A DNA stretch of 64,000 nucleotides from Pelosinus propionicus DSM 13327 (GTDB lineage Bacteria > Bacillota > Negativicutes > DSM-13327): NCBI RefSeq assembly GCF_900114615.1, contig NZ_FOTS01000020.1:1-64000 (forward strand), written 5' to 3'. The position numbers and the translations under genes were made by a program. The notes below the pieces were generated by a model, which saw nothing but the letters and a program-made list of their open reading frames with translations, was not told the origin of the DNA and did not search any database. This document shows, piece after piece, positions 15,685 through 41,857 of the stretch. Numbering within the stretch: position 1 is the first letter of the stretch; every line of letters begins with the position of its first letter.

Positions 15685-15719
15685 AAAAAAGCCTGCAGTC
15701 CCTCTAAGGTCCCGCAGGC
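15685..15719 (-). terminator. Riboswitch-controlled terminator before the efflux gene
   Basis: Minus strand GCCTGC (15719-15714) pairs with GCAGGC (15696-15691), with an inner CCT/AGG, followed by TTTTTT (15690-15685). The 5' arm overlaps the 3' strands of the aptamer stems, so metal binding should prevent terminator formation. Confidence 0.8.
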
Positions 15720-15780
15720 ACATACATTCCTGCTGCTTTACGCCCGGCTGCGCCATACTGTGACCGCCTGTTCCTAGCTA
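15694..15780 (-). ncRNA. NiCo riboswitch (czcD motif)
   Basis: On the minus strand the leader shows the conserved NiCo landmarks in order: AACAGGCGGTCA, GCGCAGCCGGGCG, AAAGCAGCAGG and GCCTGCGGGACC, enclosing a four-way junction. P1 is CTAGG (near 15775) with CCTTAG (near 15704); P4 is CAGG with CCTG. The class senses Co2+ and Ni2+ and typically controls CDF exporters, exactly the gene downstream. The overlap of the aptamer 3' side with the terminator indicates an ON switch. Recognition is from memory of the consensus; a covariance-model search would settle it. Confidence 0.85.
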
Positions 15781-15784
15781 TTCT

Positions 15785-15814
15785 ATAGTATCACACCCAG
15801 AATTTGCTTGTAAA
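15785..15814 (-). promoter_or_regulatory. Promoter of the NiCo riboswitch / efflux gene
   Basis: Minus strand TTTACA (15814-15809), 18-base spacer, TACTAT (15790-15785). The predicted start near 15778 coincides with the first base of the aptamer P1 stem. Confidence 0.75.
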
Positions 15815-27793: not shown

Positions 27794-30100
27794 CTAGGCA
27801 TGAATCGGTTGCTTATTCGCATGCATTGACCAAATACCACAAGGGCAAATTCCTGCACAAATACCGCAGCCTATACATTTATTAGCATTAGAAGCATATT
27901 CAAAATTTCCATCTGATCCCAATGTACGAGTAATTGCGTTTTCTGGACATGACCTTTCGCACATGTGACAATCACGGCATGTGCCACAGCTAATACAACG
28001 TAAATGATCATCATCTGCCTTAGGAACATCACAGGAATGACATTTTTTAAAATATGCCGTACTTAATCTATTTTTATCGATTTTAGTTTTTGGCTGCATT
28101 TGATAGGCAGTTCCTGTCAGATAAGCATCCACCGCTGCCGCTGCATGACGTGCCGCACAGATGGCATCTACCATACGTCCCGGCTTTATAGCATCGCCGG
28201 CCGTATACACCCCTTCTGCAATACGACAATCTCCAGTAACCTTCAAATGTCCTTTTTCAATTATAATTTCTTCTGGTAAGAACTCAAGTTCAGGCACTTC
28301 TCCAATTGCAATTATAATGGTATCCCCTTTAATAAATTCATTATCTTGCGTAATAATGCCTTCAGCTGTAACCTCTTTTGTGATAACCGGCCACATTAAA
28401 GTCGCTCCTAGATCTTCTACATGGGCAATTTCTTTCGCATCAGCAGCTGGTCTTTGTACATCAATACAGGTAACATATTCTGCTCCCATTTCATAAGCAC
28501 CGACCGCTGCATCCATTCCGGAATTACCACAACCAATTACAATTACATGTTTACCGACTTTGGGAGATTTTCCTTTATTGATTCCTTTTAGAAAATCAAT
28601 TCCTTTAATAATACGTTCATGCCCTGGCCACGGAATGACTCTGCCTTTGTGACCGCCGGTAGCTACCACCACTGCATCATGATTTGCTCTTATTTCAGAA
28701 AACTTTTCTTTATCTACCTTCGTATTATTTTTAAATATCACACCCATGTCTTCAATACGTTTTAATTCTGCTGACAGCGTTTGCTGAGGCAGCCGTGAAC
28801 GAGGTATAACCTGCTCTAGCTTCCCTCCCATTTTTGAATCGCTTTCAAAAACTGTTACATCATAACCTTGGCGAATTAACTGCCATGCTACAGTCAAACC
28901 TGCAGCACCACCTCCAATAATAGCTACACTCTTTCCTTTAGGTACGGCTGCTTTATCTAACGTAACATCTTTGGAATAGGTACCAAGCTCACCAATTTGT
29001 ACAGAAATATCAAGATTTTTACGTGTACAGTCTTCCATACAAACGTTAGGGCACACTGCTCCACAAACAGAGCCAGGAAACGGGGTATACTCCAATACCA
29101 ATTTATAAGCTTCTTCCACTTTTCCTTCTCGCAACAAATTATAGCGGCGTTGAGATGGAATTGAAGCCGTACAATTAAATTCACATGGAGATGCATAATA
29201 CGCATTTTCCCAAACTGGAACGCGTTGCCGATATACACCTGTCGTAACTAAACCAATTACAGAAAAATCATCCTTTAAAACATCACTAAAAATACCATTT
29301 GGAACCCACTCTTCTGTACGAAAAGGAAGGATTTTCGTTTGAGATGTTTTGCTGCGTTCCTCATATCGTAATGGTACTACTTTATACCATTCGGACCAAT
29401 TACTTAATTCATCCCTTATTTCCGAACGCGCAATGGATGTCACAAAATCATCCATTTTGCCATCCAAATAGGCAATATCCTCTTGATCAAGAGGCTTAAT
29501 TTTGACATCTTTCTTGGAAATTCCTGAAGCATTTCCCCGGAAATATAAAGTTCCCCCTACCATTCCTACACAAGAACGATCGCCTAACACAGACTCAAAC
29601 TTTTCACTGTCATATCCGCAAACTACAGCAATACCACCGGACATAAATTCAAAGGAAAAACTGCCGCAATTTTTTAAAACCCAAAATTCGGGTGGTGCAT
29701 ATAAAGGATCATGTTTCATCAAGGAACCTGAACGAGTACCCGCCCTACCGCCAATATAAATATTGCCTGATGCTGCGCAGTGAGCAGCCGTATCACCCGC
29801 ATCACCACGAACTACAATTTTACCACCAGCATTCAGCCAACCTACATCAGCAGAAGCAGAGCCTTCTACAATAATTTCTGTACCTTCCAAACACATAGAT
29901 CCTACACGTTGACCAGGGTTTTTTACTAAAAATTTGAGGTCTTTTCCTTCCGGATGCCATAAAGGTCCTCCAATATCATGTTGGCCAGAGGCTTCAATAT
30001 GAAATTCCGTCTCCCCTGCTGCCACTGCTTCATTAATTACTTGCAGCAAATCCTGAGTGGACATCCGCTGACTTCCGTCAAGACTTTTTAACTTAAACAT
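27794..30100 (-). CDS. Glutamate synthase: GXGXG domain fused to FAD/NAD(P)H oxidoreductase with ferredoxin tail
   Basis: 768 residues in three parts. Residues 1-230 are the glutamate synthase GXGXG beta-helix domain (GGKIVVRGDAGDTAAHCAASGNIYIGGRAGT). About 330-690 is a GltD-like flavoprotein with two cysteine clusters (CEFNCTASIPSQRR, CGAVCPNVCMEDCTR), FAD motif GGGAAGLTVAWQL and NAD(P)H motif IGCGNSGMDAAVG. The C-terminus has Cys-rich ferredoxin motifs (CISCGTCRDCHMCERSCP and CIGCGICAGICPCG). It should feed electrons from NAD(P)H to the FMN subunit encoded next upstream. The C-terminal ferredoxin adds a possible second electron entry. In bacterial GltB the GXGXG domain belongs to the large subunit; here it is on the small one. 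Confidence 0.9.
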   Translation of the reverse strand: MFKLKSLDGSQRMSTQDLLQVINEAVAAGETEFHIEASGQHDIGGPLWHPEGKDLKFLVKNPGQRVGSMCLEGTEIIVEGSASADVGWLNAGGKIVVRGDAGDTAAHCAASGNIYIGGRAGTRSGSLMKHDPLYAPPEFWVLKNCGSFSFEFMSGGIAVVCGYDSEKFESVLGDRSCVGMVGGTLYFRGNASGISKKDVKIKPLDQEDIAYLDGKMDDFVTSIARSEIRDELSNWSEWYKVVPLRYEERSKTSQTKILPFRTEEWVPNGIFSDVLKDDFSVIGLVTTGVYRQRVPVWENAYYASPCEFNCTASIPSQRRYNLLREGKVEEAYKLVLEYTPFPGSVCGAVCPNVCMEDCTRKNLDISVQIGELGTYSKDVTLDKAAVPKGKSVAIIGGGAAGLTVAWQLIRQGYDVTVFESDSKMGGKLEQVIPRSRLPQQTLSAELKRIEDMGVIFKNNTKVDKEKFSEIRANHDAVVVATGGHKGRVIPWPGHERIIKGIDFLKGINKGKSPKVGKHVIVIGCGNSGMDAAVGAYEMGAEYVTCIDVQRPAADAKEIAHVEDLGATLMWPVITKEVTAEGIITQDNEFIKGDTIIIAIGEVPELEFLPEEIIIEKGHLKVTGDCRIAEGVYTAGDAIKPGRMVDAICAARHAAAAVDAYLTGTAYQMQPKTKIDKNRLSTAYFKKCHSCDVPKADDDHLRCISCGTCRDCHMCERSCPENAITRTLGSDGNFEYASNANKCIGCGICAGICPCGIWSMHANKQPIHA

Positions 30101-30112
30101 ATTGGTTTCCTC

Positions 30113-31747
30113 CTAACACACATACTGAATTGCCAATTTCTCAGCAATGGCTTGATCTGTTGTTACTAAAGCATCCGAGCGCCCCACCGGCAAAGAACTA
30201 TTGCCTATTGGTGCCATTAATTTTCTTAATTCACTGTCAAGGGCCAGCATATATTCCACAATATTTTGTGCCCCTTTATCAATATCTAATCGCTCAACAA
30301 GACGAGGATCTTGTGTACAAATACCTGCTGGGCACTTGCCTGTATTGCAGGCGTTGCATCTGCCATGTTCATTCCCTACACAGCCTAACAGCTGAATCAA
30401 TATTTTGCCTAGAAATACCCCATTGGCACCTAAACAAATAACCTTAAACGCATCAGCTGCTGCATTTCCAGTAAGTCCGATACCGCCGCCAGCCCATAAA
30501 GGTATCTGTCCTTGTCGCCCTTGTTTTACTGCAGACAAATAACATTCTCGTGTTTTAGAAACTACTGGGTGTCCTGTATGATCAAGAGAGATTTCATTAG
30601 CGGCCCCTGTACCACCTTGAATACCGTCTATGAAAAATCCACCGCAGATTCGATAAGGATCACGCAACAAATTATTATATACAGACACAGATGTTGCAGA
30701 AGCAGCACATTTAATCGCTACTGGAACCCTAAATTTAAACGCTGCATTCATTGATAAAAACATTTTCTGTACAGATTCTTCTATTGAATACAAACCTTGG
30801 TGATTCGGTGGCGACATCAAGTCGGCTTTTGGTACACCACGAATCGCTTGCACATGATCAGCGACTTTAGCTGCAGGTAAAAGCCCTCCATCACCAGGCT
30901 TTGCTCCTTGACCTATTTTTATTAATATTCCAGCTGGATCTACTTTCATTTTAGGTATTGCTTTCACGATTCGGTTCCAGCCAAAATGTCCTGATGCAAT
31001 TTGCAATATCATATATTTAAGCTGTTCTGATTCTAGAAGTTTAACAGGCATTCCGCCTTCACCGGAGGACATACGCACAGGCATGTTATGCTTTTCATTC
31101 AAATAGGCTGTAGCCATAGCGATAGCTTCCCATGCTCTAGTAGACAAAGCCCCAATTGACATATCACTAAAAATAATAGGATAAATCCAGTTTACAGGCG
31201 GTAATTTAGCTGTCAAATTCAATGTACCATTTACCGAACTCAAAGGTAGTTCGTGAGGCATTAGTACCCTTCCAAAAGGCGCTAAGATATCAAATGTATG
31301 ACGCTCTGAATCCAAAGCAGGGTCAGTCATCTGTGATATACGCCCTACAATAATATTATCCAATGTGCGTCCACTATTTAAGCTGGTACGCCCTCCCCGC
31401 TTAATTGGCGATCCACCCTTTCTTGCTAATAGACTAAAACGAGAGTCAGGATTTCGGACTGGTTTAATAGCTTGGTTGGGACATATCTTCTCACACATTC
31501 CACAACCCGTACAGGCATTTTCTATGCTATTTTGTTGTTTAATCATAAGTACCGCGCTATGTCTTTGGCTTGGTTCTGGACGATGACCAGTAGAGACTGT
31601 AACAGAACGTCGCTCTACTGCAGGCATGATTGCCTGAAAGGTACAAGCTGCAACACAGCTACCGCACATAGTACAGCGGTCAGTCTTATATTCAATTTTC
31701 CAAGGTAAATCATTTACTGTGATATCCTGAGTATTTACTGTTTCCAT
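30113..31747 (-). CDS. Glutamate synthase FMN-binding central subunit with N-terminal ferredoxins
   Basis: 544 residues. The first ~90 carry two 4Fe-4S motifs (CTMCGSCVAACTF and CTGCGMCEKICPN). The rest is the glutamate synthase TIM-barrel with IGQGAKPGDGGLLP, LMSPPNHQGLYSIEE, FIDGIQGGTGAA and the CVGNEHGRCNACNTGKCPAGICTQDP cluster region. It converts 2-oxoglutarate plus ammonia (from the amidotransferase subunit) to glutamate. It is the archaeal-type layout, with separate amidotransferase. ATG at 31747 follows GGAGGTAGAGAG and overlaps the gltA-like gene by 13 bases. Confidence 0.92.
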   Translation of the reverse strand: METVNTQDITVNDLPWKIEYKTDRCTMCGSCVAACTFQAIMPAVERRSVTVSTGHRPEPSQRHSAVLMIKQQNSIENACTGCGMCEKICPNQAIKPVRNPDSRFSLLARKGGSPIKRGGRTSLNSGRTLDNIIVGRISQMTDPALDSERHTFDILAPFGRVLMPHELPLSSVNGTLNLTAKLPPVNWIYPIIFSDMSIGALSTRAWEAIAMATAYLNEKHNMPVRMSSGEGGMPVKLLESEQLKYMILQIASGHFGWNRIVKAIPKMKVDPAGILIKIGQGAKPGDGGLLPAAKVADHVQAIRGVPKADLMSPPNHQGLYSIEESVQKMFLSMNAAFKFRVPVAIKCAASATSVSVYNNLLRDPYRICGGFFIDGIQGGTGAANEISLDHTGHPVVSKTRECYLSAVKQGRQGQIPLWAGGGIGLTGNAAADAFKVICLGANGVFLGKILIQLLGCVGNEHGRCNACNTGKCPAGICTQDPRLVERLDIDKGAQNIVEYMLALDSELRKLMAPIGNSSLPVGRSDALVTTDQAIAEKLAIQYVC

Positions 31748-32841
31748 CTCTCTACCTCCAATGCGTCATTAATAATAACCACTTCACGTTCATTTGGATA
31801 TACATCTAGTTCTTGATTGCGATGAGGCAAAATAGCATTTAAACCACATACTTCGGAAGCAATAGCTACCATTGTATCATCCCCGCCTACAACTACGGGT
31901 CGTAATTTCTTAGAATCGCAACAGGTCATAATACTACCATTAGGCAACATACCAATCACTGTATTCGGTCCATTAATTTCTAAAGAGCCTAATGATTGTC
32001 TGATTGCCCTCAGTTCAGCACCATCGGAACGAGAACTAAGCTCATTAAATGGAAGAGGAGTAATCACGTGTTTATAATATTTAATAGGCCATTTTAATTC
32101 TTGTAGTACATAGTGCAAGGTATACAGAAAGTTCTGGGAATCAGACTCAAAACCAATATACCCACGATGTAAGGATTTTTGATATTCTTTATTCTTGGTA
32201 TAAAAAGTGTTTTCTCCATTAGCACACAAAGTATAACCTTGCAAGAAAAAAGGATGAGCCGCATAACGCACAATATCATAATTTGTGTTTTGCCTGCATT
32301 GGACAACTACATTTTTTGCCATCAAGTCACCATTATTGTCCCACAGCTTAAAGTAGGTAGCAATGTCCCAAGGATCACCAATTTCTTTTAAAGTCAAAAC
32401 ATCTGGCCAAAAAGAATAAACATAGCCTTGATCTTGCTTTTCCAACAATTCACGCAGCGCCAGTCTAGTATCTAGCAATAACTCGCCTTTTGCCTCTTCT
32501 GAAGCATCACGATAATATTCAGGGTAATCATAATTGCGAAAAATATAATAAGGCATAGCCTTAATATCAAGTTTTACGTTTTTAACTCCACGAGGAATCC
32601 ATTCTGCCAATTGGCGAAAATCATTGGCCTCCATATAGTCTTCAACCAGCTTTGCTCCCTTTTGCGTACAGGCCAATGATAATAAAGGCTTATCCTTATG
32701 TTTTGAAAAAACTCCTGCCAGGTCCTGCATAACCATCGCAAAACCTGAATTATCATGTCCCTCTTGCTGCGGTAACATTAAATGCAACGCTGCTGATGGA
32801 TGGAAAAACTCTTTACTTTTAATGGCGCCAATTCTACACAT
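31735..32841 (-). CDS. Glutamate synthase class II glutamine amidotransferase subunit
   Basis: 368 residues of the Ntn-hydrolase amidotransferase fold. The ATG at 32841 puts Cys at position 2 (M-C-R-I-G-A-I), which after Met removal is the catalytic nucleophile; a GTG four codons earlier would bury it and is rejected. GHDNSGFAMV and the later YAAHPFFLQGYTLCANGENTFY resemble the GltB N-terminal domain. It releases ammonia from glutamine for the FMN subunit. It is the first gene of the three-gene operon and has a 340-base leader with a ykkC-family aptamer. Confidence 0.88.
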   Translation of the reverse strand: MCRIGAIKSKEFFHPSAALHLMLPQQEGHDNSGFAMVMQDLAGVFSKHKDKPLLSLACTQKGAKLVEDYMEANDFRQLAEWIPRGVKNVKLDIKAMPYYIFRNYDYPEYYRDASEEAKGELLLDTRLALRELLEKQDQGYVYSFWPDVLTLKEIGDPWDIATYFKLWDNNGDLMAKNVVVQCRQNTNYDIVRYAAHPFFLQGYTLCANGENTFYTKNKEYQKSLHRGYIGFESDSQNFLYTLHYVLQELKWPIKYYKHVITPLPFNELSSRSDGAELRAIRQSLGSLEINGPNTVIGMLPNGSIMTCCDSKKLRPVVVGGDDTMVAIASEVCGLNAILPHRNQELDVYPNEREVVIINDALEVERWKQ

Positions 32842-33036
32842 ATCTTCCCCCACTCCTTCATACCAAGCTAAATTTTAAATTTATACAACTATCTTTTCTT
32901 AGACCAGGGCAGCACTCTCAATGAGCGATCGTGAAAAAAGCAACTTATATCATTGCAACAGAAAAGACCCGGGAAACCACTGGATAGTGAAGTTGGTTCT
33001 AAGTAGAAAATGCCTACCAGCAAACCTTACTTATCC

Positions 33037-33138
33037 AGGACTTTCCGCAGGGCCTTTTTTACCCACGGTGTTGTGCGATCTGCACCTGTACCGCTTGGAC
33101 CAGACCACTAAATAGCGCGGAACCCTAGGTACACTCCT
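33037..33138 (-). ncRNA. ykkC-family riboswitch, subtype 2 (ppGpp candidate)
   Basis: On the minus strand the leader shows CCTAGGGTTCCG, CTGGTCCAAG, ACACCG and GGGTAAAAAAGGCCC in the order and spacing of the ykkC fold. GGTCCAAG and the 3' GCGGAAAG are unlike the guanidine-I type (GGTCCGAGAG, CCCGGGAGA), so it belongs to subtype 2, whose members sense ppGpp, PRPP or nucleotides. P1 is AGGA (33138-33135) with TCCT (33040-33037). Because the gene is an amino acid (glutamate) enzyme, ppGpp is the more likely ligand; this is inference. Just downstream, CTGGATA (overlapping the 3' side of P1) can pair with TATCCAG, a possible switch. Confidence 0.75.
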
Positions 33139-33186
33139 AAAAACCTTTTGTCTTATTACAGGAAACGTTTTTGTTTCACTTACTAC

Positions 33187-33215
33187 ATTATAAAAACGAA
33201 AGCTTTCACTGTCAA
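33187..33215 (-). promoter_or_regulatory. Promoter of the glutamate synthase operon
   Basis: Minus strand TTGACA (33215-33210), 17-base spacer, TATAAT (33192-33187); predicted start near 33180, 40 bases before the aptamer. The rest of the gap (33220-33600) is AT-rich and shows nothing I can name. Confidence 0.85.
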
Positions 33216-33602: not shown

Positions 33603-34178
33603 ATGTTAAAAAACCTTTTTAGTTTCCCCAAACTAAACTCTGAGCTAAAATTAAATATTAACCAACCGACTGCAATGTATGACATTGCCAGCCATTTACG
33701 CACGATTATGCAAGAAGCAACTGCAACAAATGTTTCTCTTGTTATCTTGTGTATTGGGACAGATCGCTCCACAGGTGATTCTCTTGGTCCTCTTACAGGT
33801 ACTAAGCTGCGCTCATTTAATCCGTATCCACATATTTATGGCACCCTTGACGAACCAATTCATGCCTCAAACTTAAAAGATAGTATCTGCTCCATCCAGT
33901 CAAACATCTCTAATCCTTTTATTATAGCTGTAGATGCTTGCCTTGGACGTTTAGAAAACGTAGGTTGTGTGTCTCTTGGTAAAGGATCTCTAAAACCAGG
34001 TGCTGCAGTACATAAAGATCTCCCTTCCGTAGGTGATGCCTATATTACTGGCATTGTAAATGTAAGTGGTTTTATGGAGCATCTTGTATTACAAAGCACA
34101 AGATTAAACTTAGTTATGAAAATGTCTGATACCATAGCTCATGCCATCTCTTACGGTTTGCGAACCTATGCAAAATAA
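33603..34178 (+). CDS. yyaC: YyaC-family spore protein (DUF1256)
   Basis: 191 residues from the ATG at 33603, eight bases after AGGAG; a TTG 21 bases upstream is in frame but has no site. The core CIGTDRSTGDSLGPLTGTKL and NPFIIAVDACLGRLENVGCVSLGKGSLKPGAAVHKDLPSVGDAYITG identifies the YyaC family, related in fold to the germination protease Gpr and hydrogenase-maturation proteases, with conserved Asp residues. In Bacillus it lies near spo0J close to oriC and is linked to sporulation. Its activity is not established. It is transcribed against its neighbours and against replication. Confidence 0.9.
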   Translation: MLKNLFSFPKLNSELKLNINQPTAMYDIASHLRTIMQEATATNVSLVILCIGTDRSTGDSLGPLTGTKLRSFNPYPHIYGTLDEPIHASNLKDSICSIQSNISNPFIIAVDACLGRLENVGCVSLGKGSLKPGAAVHKDLPSVGDAYITGIVNVSGFMEHLVLQSTRLNLVMKMSDTIAHAISYGLRTYAK

Positions 34179-41718: not shown

Positions 41719-41740
41719 AAATTCCAATTTAATAAATACT

Positions 41741-41840
41741 CTTATCTAGAGTGGTCGAGGGACTGGCCCTATGACACCCAGCAACCGGCAGCAATGCAAA
41801 TGGTGCTAAATCCAGCAGAATTCAGGTTCTGAAAGATAAG
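41741..41840 (+). ncRNA. SAM-I riboswitch (S-box)
   Basis: P1 strands CTTATCT (41741-41747) and AGATAAG (41834-41840) enclose the S-box core AGAGTGGTCGAGGGACTGGCCC, ATGACACCCAGCAACC and GGTGCTAAATCCAGCAG. The class binds S-adenosylmethionine and shuts off methionine genes by termination. It precedes metF, metH-activation and metH, an ideal context. Confidence 0.97.
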
Positions 41841-41857
41841 AGGAAAGAACGGATGAT

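Follow-up and report, generated by a model that had tools for sequence, protein, structure and literature searches.

RNAs of ykkC subtype 2a sense ppGpp, act as ON switches and have been linked to glutamate synthases (PMC5912903, PMC7266159, PMC6031431), and the class activates genes for branched-chain amino acid (BCAA) and glutamate synthesis (PMC7266159). In the known structures the guanine of ppGpp pairs with C75 (PMC6031431, PMC10687018). In structures of the PRPP aptamer it is G96 that pairs with C75, and in a G96A mutant the ppGpp guanine takes the place of G96; the role of position 49 in ykkC RNAs has been described in the same work (PMC6031431). The locus analyzed here lies in a window of 64,000 nucleotides from Pelosinus propionicus DSM 13327. 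We read its leader as a single ykkC subtype 2a (ppGpp-type) riboswitch, working as a transcriptional ON switch in front of a glutamate synthase operon, and put the probability of this reading at about 85%. As glutamate synthases are already among the published 2a targets (PMC5912903, PMC7266159), the Pelosinus case is a clear new example and not a new kind; no published description of it was found in the open-access literature.

The promoter, aptamer, terminator and operon identified by computation are all located on the minus strand (Table 1); the original prediction had specified no strand. Its span, 32842-33215, is bounded precisely by the −35 box (33215) on one side and the start codon (ATG at 32841) on the other. 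The promoter is of a perfect sigma-70 type and is kept in nine related leaders that were aligned. Approximately 200 nt separate the aptamer from the ribosome-binding site and ATG of the gltS-like gene; this stretch (33037-32841) is variable among relatives, and no Rfam family scored there that could represent a tandem second aptamer. The divergent neighbor of the glt operon is a gene for a YyaC-type spore protease (33606-34178, plus strand), and the interval between this gene and the glt promoter is AT-rich and conserved in part only. Elsewhere in the window, a SAM riboswitch (41739-41842, plus strand, 88 bits) precedes a metF-like gene, and a NiCo riboswitch (15705-15786, minus strand) scores just over threshold (37.7 vs 37 bits).

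Table 1. Sequence features of the glt leader and operon, in window coordinates
Feature	Position	Strand	Details
Promoter	33187..33215	-	−35 TTGACA 33215-33210, 17-nt spacer, −10 TATAAT 33192-33187; 12/12 consensus matches
Predicted transcript start	near 33180	-	
ykkC subtype 2a aptamer, P0 to P0'	33037..33138	-	Rfam RF00442 and home-built 2a/2b covariance models
P0 5' strand AGGA	33135..33138	-	Pairs with 33040-33037; add-on helix, absent from guanidine-I
P1 5' strand UGUACC	33128..33133	-	Pairs with 33092-33087 GGUACA
G48 (33094) and C49 (33093)	33093..33094	-	Alignment with own-genome guanidine-I aptamer
C75 A76 C77 C78 equivalents	33067..33070	-	Sequence; C75 = 33070
UG between P3 strands	33048..33049	-	No G at position 96: U (33049) or missing
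P0 3' strand UCCU	33037..33040	-	Common to aptamer and terminator 5' arm
Terminator hairpin	32964..33056	-	5' arm is P3 3' strand plus P0 3' strand; 3' arm UAUCCAGUGGUUUCCCGGGUCUU; dG −36.0 kcal/mol
U-rich tail UUCUGUUG	32956..32963	-	After hairpin; UCUUUUCUG including stem end
Second weak hairpin GCAAU..GUUGC + U6	32934..32959	-	Leader alignment of relatives
Ribosome-binding site AAGGAG	32853..32858	-	Sequence; before ATG, seen in leader alignment
gltS-like gene, class II glutamine amidotransferase subunit (MCRIGAI...)	31735..32841	-	First gene of operon
Glutamate synthase FMN-domain subunit, 4Fe-4S motifs	30113..31747	-	PF01645, E 1e-62
GXGXG domain fused to GltD-like NAD(P)/FAD oxidoreductase, 4Fe-4S domains	27794..30100	-	PF01493, PF07992, PF14691

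A minus-strand ykkC fold was located by Rfam cmscan at 33139-33043, with 50.7 bits for RF00442 (E 1e-7) against a gathering score of 63. Our own model of ykkC subtype 2, which had the window sequence itself in its training set, gave 132 bits, while a 2a model trained on BCAA, transporter and similar loci and free of glt sequences gave 109.4 bits at an E-value of about 1e-29, a figure that, as for all our home-made covariance models, is rough by design. The match to the ykkC fold is far beyond chance and, together with the covariation, bears out the fold named in the original prediction. Among 22 gltS-linked relatives, in an alignment that was fitted to the structure model and is hence biased toward structure, 95% of the base-pair cells hold standard pairs, and 14 of 30 pairs are changed on both sides, compared with 7.6 in shuffles and at most four when the partner strand was slid. 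In the same relatives, P1 shows two-sided changes in three of its six pairs, with 94% of cells paired, and P0 covaries as well, its first pair being G-C in 15/22 and A-U in 7/22, with GGGA/UCCC occurring in relatives. By minimum free energy the leader as a whole is unremarkable (z −1.3), and a plain fold of the leader does not show the aptamer, as expected where tertiary contacts and ligand hold the fold. Since the one ykkC model that Rfam offers here is Guanidine-I, which falls below threshold, an annotation pipeline would miss or mislabel this aptamer.

The proposed pairing of CTGGATA with a downstream TATCCAG exists and constitutes the top of a much longer hairpin. The accompanying view that no strong terminator is present did not hold, as this hairpin is followed by a U-rich tail and its 5' arm is the P3/P0 3' strand of the aptamer. 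The two stems are mutually exclusive: the segment from 33056 to 33037, comprising the P3 3' strand, a linker and the P0 3' strand, pairs either within the aptamer or with the segment ending at 32964. The terminator fold has a z of −2.6, and equal stability was reached in 1 of 200 shuffles of a slightly longer stretch. In 38 of 39 glt/ilvN leaders, a T-followed hairpin recruits 12 or more nt from the aptamer 3' strand; after shuffling of the downstream sequence, 285 of 780 leaders did so. As the shuffles swap dinucleotide blocks and 37% of them still reach the threshold, the contrast is a genuine one without being extreme. When growing transcripts were folded by partition function, P0 stayed in use until the 3' arm of the terminator appeared, and 94% of the ligand-free full transcript was then in the terminator arm pairing. 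The second weak hairpin is seen in several Pelosinus relatives and is absent from two sister-genus leaders. Because the aptamer's own 3' strand serves as the terminator 5' arm, an ON switch is expected.

The archaeal-type glutamate synthase announced for the downstream region was recovered by profile and Pfam matches as a split three-gene operon, a layout that, as far as sequence can tell, fits this enzyme type. The single gltS-like protein had no Pfam or NCBIfam match, but a profile of eight relatives matched, among PDB sequences, the amidotransferase region of glutamate synthase (large chain 7mfm, E 1.1e-4) as well as PurF (E 0.009-0.01). The gene for the FMN-domain subunit overlaps the gltS-like gene by 13 bases. 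The closest named gltS relatives are from Pelosinus fermentans (98%).

In assigning the aptamer to a ligand class, two other ykkC identities had to be considered. Guanidine-I is the only ykkC-fold family in Rfam that matches, which could suggest a diverged guanidine-I aptamer, but this is most improbable given a score 12 bits short of the cut-off, where the real guanidine-I aptamer of the same genome reaches 84.1 bits, and a gene context unlike guanidine export. The C at position 49, a pyrimidine as in subtype 2 where guanidine-I has A, the score below the Rfam gathering score and the presence of P0 place the RNA in subtype 2, in agreement with the original prediction. A best match to guanidine-I, which had been named as counting against that prediction, was obtained in form only, RF00442 being the sole matching ykkC model in Rfam. 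The covariance comparison that had been called for gave 50.7 (below 63), 109.4 and 100.9 bits with the guanidine-I, ppGpp (2a) and PRPP (2b) models, respectively. The 2a model (R2, 29 BCAA/transporter-type loci) and the 2b model (R3, 29 purine-type loci), for both of which the training loci had been collected using a model that itself contained the window sequence, differ by 8.5 bits for the window aptamer, in favor of 2a. A PRPP (subtype 2b) riboswitch, coupling glutamate synthase to PRPP supply, could draw on the high absolute 2b score, on a fold and P0 common to 2a and 2b, and on the G found at the 96-like position in some Sporomusa-type glt aptamers (CCC-GG-CGG). We regard it as very unlikely, because held-out purine-linked aptamers behave in the opposite way, all 28 favoring 2b by 12 to 32 bits, because no purine aptamer adjoins and the genes concern amino acids and not purines, and because the genome's own PRPP-type aptamer sits at a different locus. 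The base said to separate ppGpp from PRPP aptamers also came out as the original prediction would have it: the conserved G of 2b at position 96 is absent, with U there or the nucleotide missing in a register that is inexact because the strand is one nucleotide shorter than usual. Position 49 is C in 34/34 BCAA/natA-type aptamers, as in the window, and mostly U in purine-linked ones. With both models scored, 13 of 13 held-out gltS-annotated leaders favor 2a, by 2.0 to 10.6 bits, as do all Negativicutes gltS loci scored; for two transporter-linked 2a aptamers the 2a margin is 27 and 30 bits, larger than that of the window. Assignment to 2a within subtype 2 is thus supported by the 8.5-bit margin, a position 96 that is not G, C at 49 and the single U opposite in the P3 internal loop, all of which suggest an aptamer of the ppGpp type. 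Guanidine-I and PRPP identities were rejected on the basis of covariance models and residue diagnostics. Three further aptamers of the genome were classed as expected, namely the guanidine-I aptamer, a PRPP-type ykkC RNA with G at 96, in tandem behind a guanine aptamer (Rfam Purine, 85.9 bits) and followed by an NCS2 permease gene, and a 2a-type aptamer before ilvN-ilvC.

Several ykkC RNAs in other genomes depart from these residue rules. Two loci of G371, the ilvB-linked L107 (401-530) and the gltS-linked L093, fit 2a by 24 and 10 bits, respectively, yet have AGG before CGG, which puts a G at the 96-like position; taken by itself, the G96 rule would class both as PRPP. A subtype-2-like RNA before an MFS transporter (L031, 1497-1624, G001) has G at 49 and a changed core (CTAGGGATCCG), and L142, before an M20-type peptidase, also has G at 49, so that neither fits the rule of a pyrimidine at this position. 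L038 (1700-1480, minus strand, G006) has a Purine riboswitch ahead of a degenerate PRPP-type ykkC RNA, before an apparent xanthine phosphoribosyltransferase gene; its purine part coincides with an odd candidate listed at 1401846 for Pelosinus sp. UFO1 (PMC4521916).

The binding pocket and the terminator leave further readings to be weighed. In usual 2a RNAs, N-A-G stands between the P3 apical strand and CGG, whereas most glt aptamers are one nucleotide short at this S-turn strand; in Negativicutes the strand is mostly down to two nucleotides (UG or GG), and in clostridial glt aptamers it is altered further (UU or a single U), a pattern spread over several families. The glt-linked RNAs might accordingly form a separate pocket variant, perhaps for another nucleotide or with a preference for pppGpp, and hence an alarmone sensor of glutamate synthesis in its own right, which we consider unlikely; that they are 2a pocket variants with a shifted ligand such as pppGpp, GTP, GDP or another nucleotide is likewise unlikely. 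The shortened strand is not exclusive to glt: UG recurs in the ilvN aptamer of Pelosinus and a two-nucleotide AG in some ilvE aptamers, and L162 keeps the usual UAG before gltS. Moreover, loss of position 96 is compatible with ppGpp, as the lost nucleotide is the one whose place the ligand guanine fills, and binding tolerates its absence (PMC6031431). The shortened pocket is nevertheless the sole part of the locus that could prove surprising, leaving room for a shifted ligand, and the shortened glt pockets are a natural set for testing ligand tuning in ykkC RNAs. A regulatory relic, in which the aptamer persists while the leader no longer terminates and expression is constitutive, would accord with the interrupted U-tract of Pelosinus (UCUUUUCUG) and with a classical-terminator scan of the leader that returned none. 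The scan missed the terminator because its loop exceeds the limit of 8, and the aptamer core and both hairpin arms are conserved across the genus and a sister genus, in which a perfect U-tract occurs (L013, UUUUUUUU), so that a relic is highly improbable. Compact stems, often with a good U-tract, are found in Sporomusa and Anaerospora relatives and in glt leaders of clostridia. In view of the interrupted U-tract, termination by the window version may be incomplete.

The glt aptamer leader was identified in nine of ten genomes of the family; in the tenth (G009, 85% complete), ilvN and NCS2 aptamers were found but no glt match. Among 80 Negativicutes gltS loci, 22 carry the aptamer (21 strong and one degenerate, L166, 33 bits), and where named these are all on the Sporomusa/Pelosinus side. 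None of the listed gltS loci from Selenomonas, Mitsuokella, Megamonas, Pectinatus and Anaerovibrio has it. Elsewhere in the phylum, such aptamers also stand before more distant gltS genes of other families, at about 25% identity (G030, G185, G350, G390, and G371), and L070 and L082 have the aptamer before a glutamate-synthase-like FMN-domain gene, identified by sequence only. Phylum-wide, most gltS genes are without an aptamer, which was present for 4 of the 30 best distant relatives. At L093 (3134-2660, minus strand, contig 132 of G371), a 2a-type ykkC aptamer that has a terminator-like hairpin of its own stands ahead of an Rfam Lysine riboswitch (125 bits), and an archaeal-type gltS comes next, possibly a ppGpp and lysine tandem; no second member of the family is among the genomes examined.

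With a 2a riboswitch as the preferred reading, the locus would operate as follows. The leader would be transcribed from the promoter and, without ligand, the 3' strands of P3 and P0 would pair downstream into the terminator, at which RNA polymerase would stop near 32960. Upon amino-acid starvation, ppGpp (or pppGpp) would rise and its guanine pair with C75, locking P3 and P0. This would block the terminator and allow transcription of the three operon genes (31735-32841, 30113-31747, and 27794-30100). Fold, subtype, promoter, exclusive stems, gene and conservation come from the computation, and we infer which ligand acts, that the switch is ON in the cell and how efficiently the leader terminates. 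The coupling of the alarmone to glutamate synthesis put forward in the original prediction is thereby supported, with ppGpp as presumed ligand, and in its general form is already published (PMC5912903, PMC7266159). If the ligand is as presumed, the locus gives an anaerobic genus a direct RNA link between the starvation alarmone and the point at which nitrogen enters amino acids. At glt this link is conserved in many bacteria related to Sporomusa, and the gltS loci examined on the Selenomonas side lack it.

Compared with the known systems, the aptamer shares the core fold and the CUAGGGUUCCG motif with Guanidine-I (RF00442), which differs in having A at 49, no P0 and a conserved S-turn G. Fold and P0 are also those of the 2b PRPP riboswitch, but 2b RNAs carry G at 96, have U at 49 in most cases and have a P3 loop that is longer on its 5' side; they precede purine genes, often with an upstream guanine aptamer, whereas the gene here is a glutamate synthase. 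Subtypes 2c (nucleoside diphosphates) and 2d (orphan) use the same scaffold and are set apart by their gene context of NUDIX/HAD hydrolases and EamA/TauE transporters. From 2a RNAs in general the locus differs by the very large terminator loop and the weak U-tract in Pelosinus, and from most BCAA-linked ones by a P3 internal loop that is one nucleotide shorter on its 3' side. With the ykkC 2a ppGpp riboswitch it has in common the fold, P0, C at 49, C75, a position 96 that is not G, an amino-acid biosynthesis gene downstream and a terminator overlapping the 3' strand of the aptamer.
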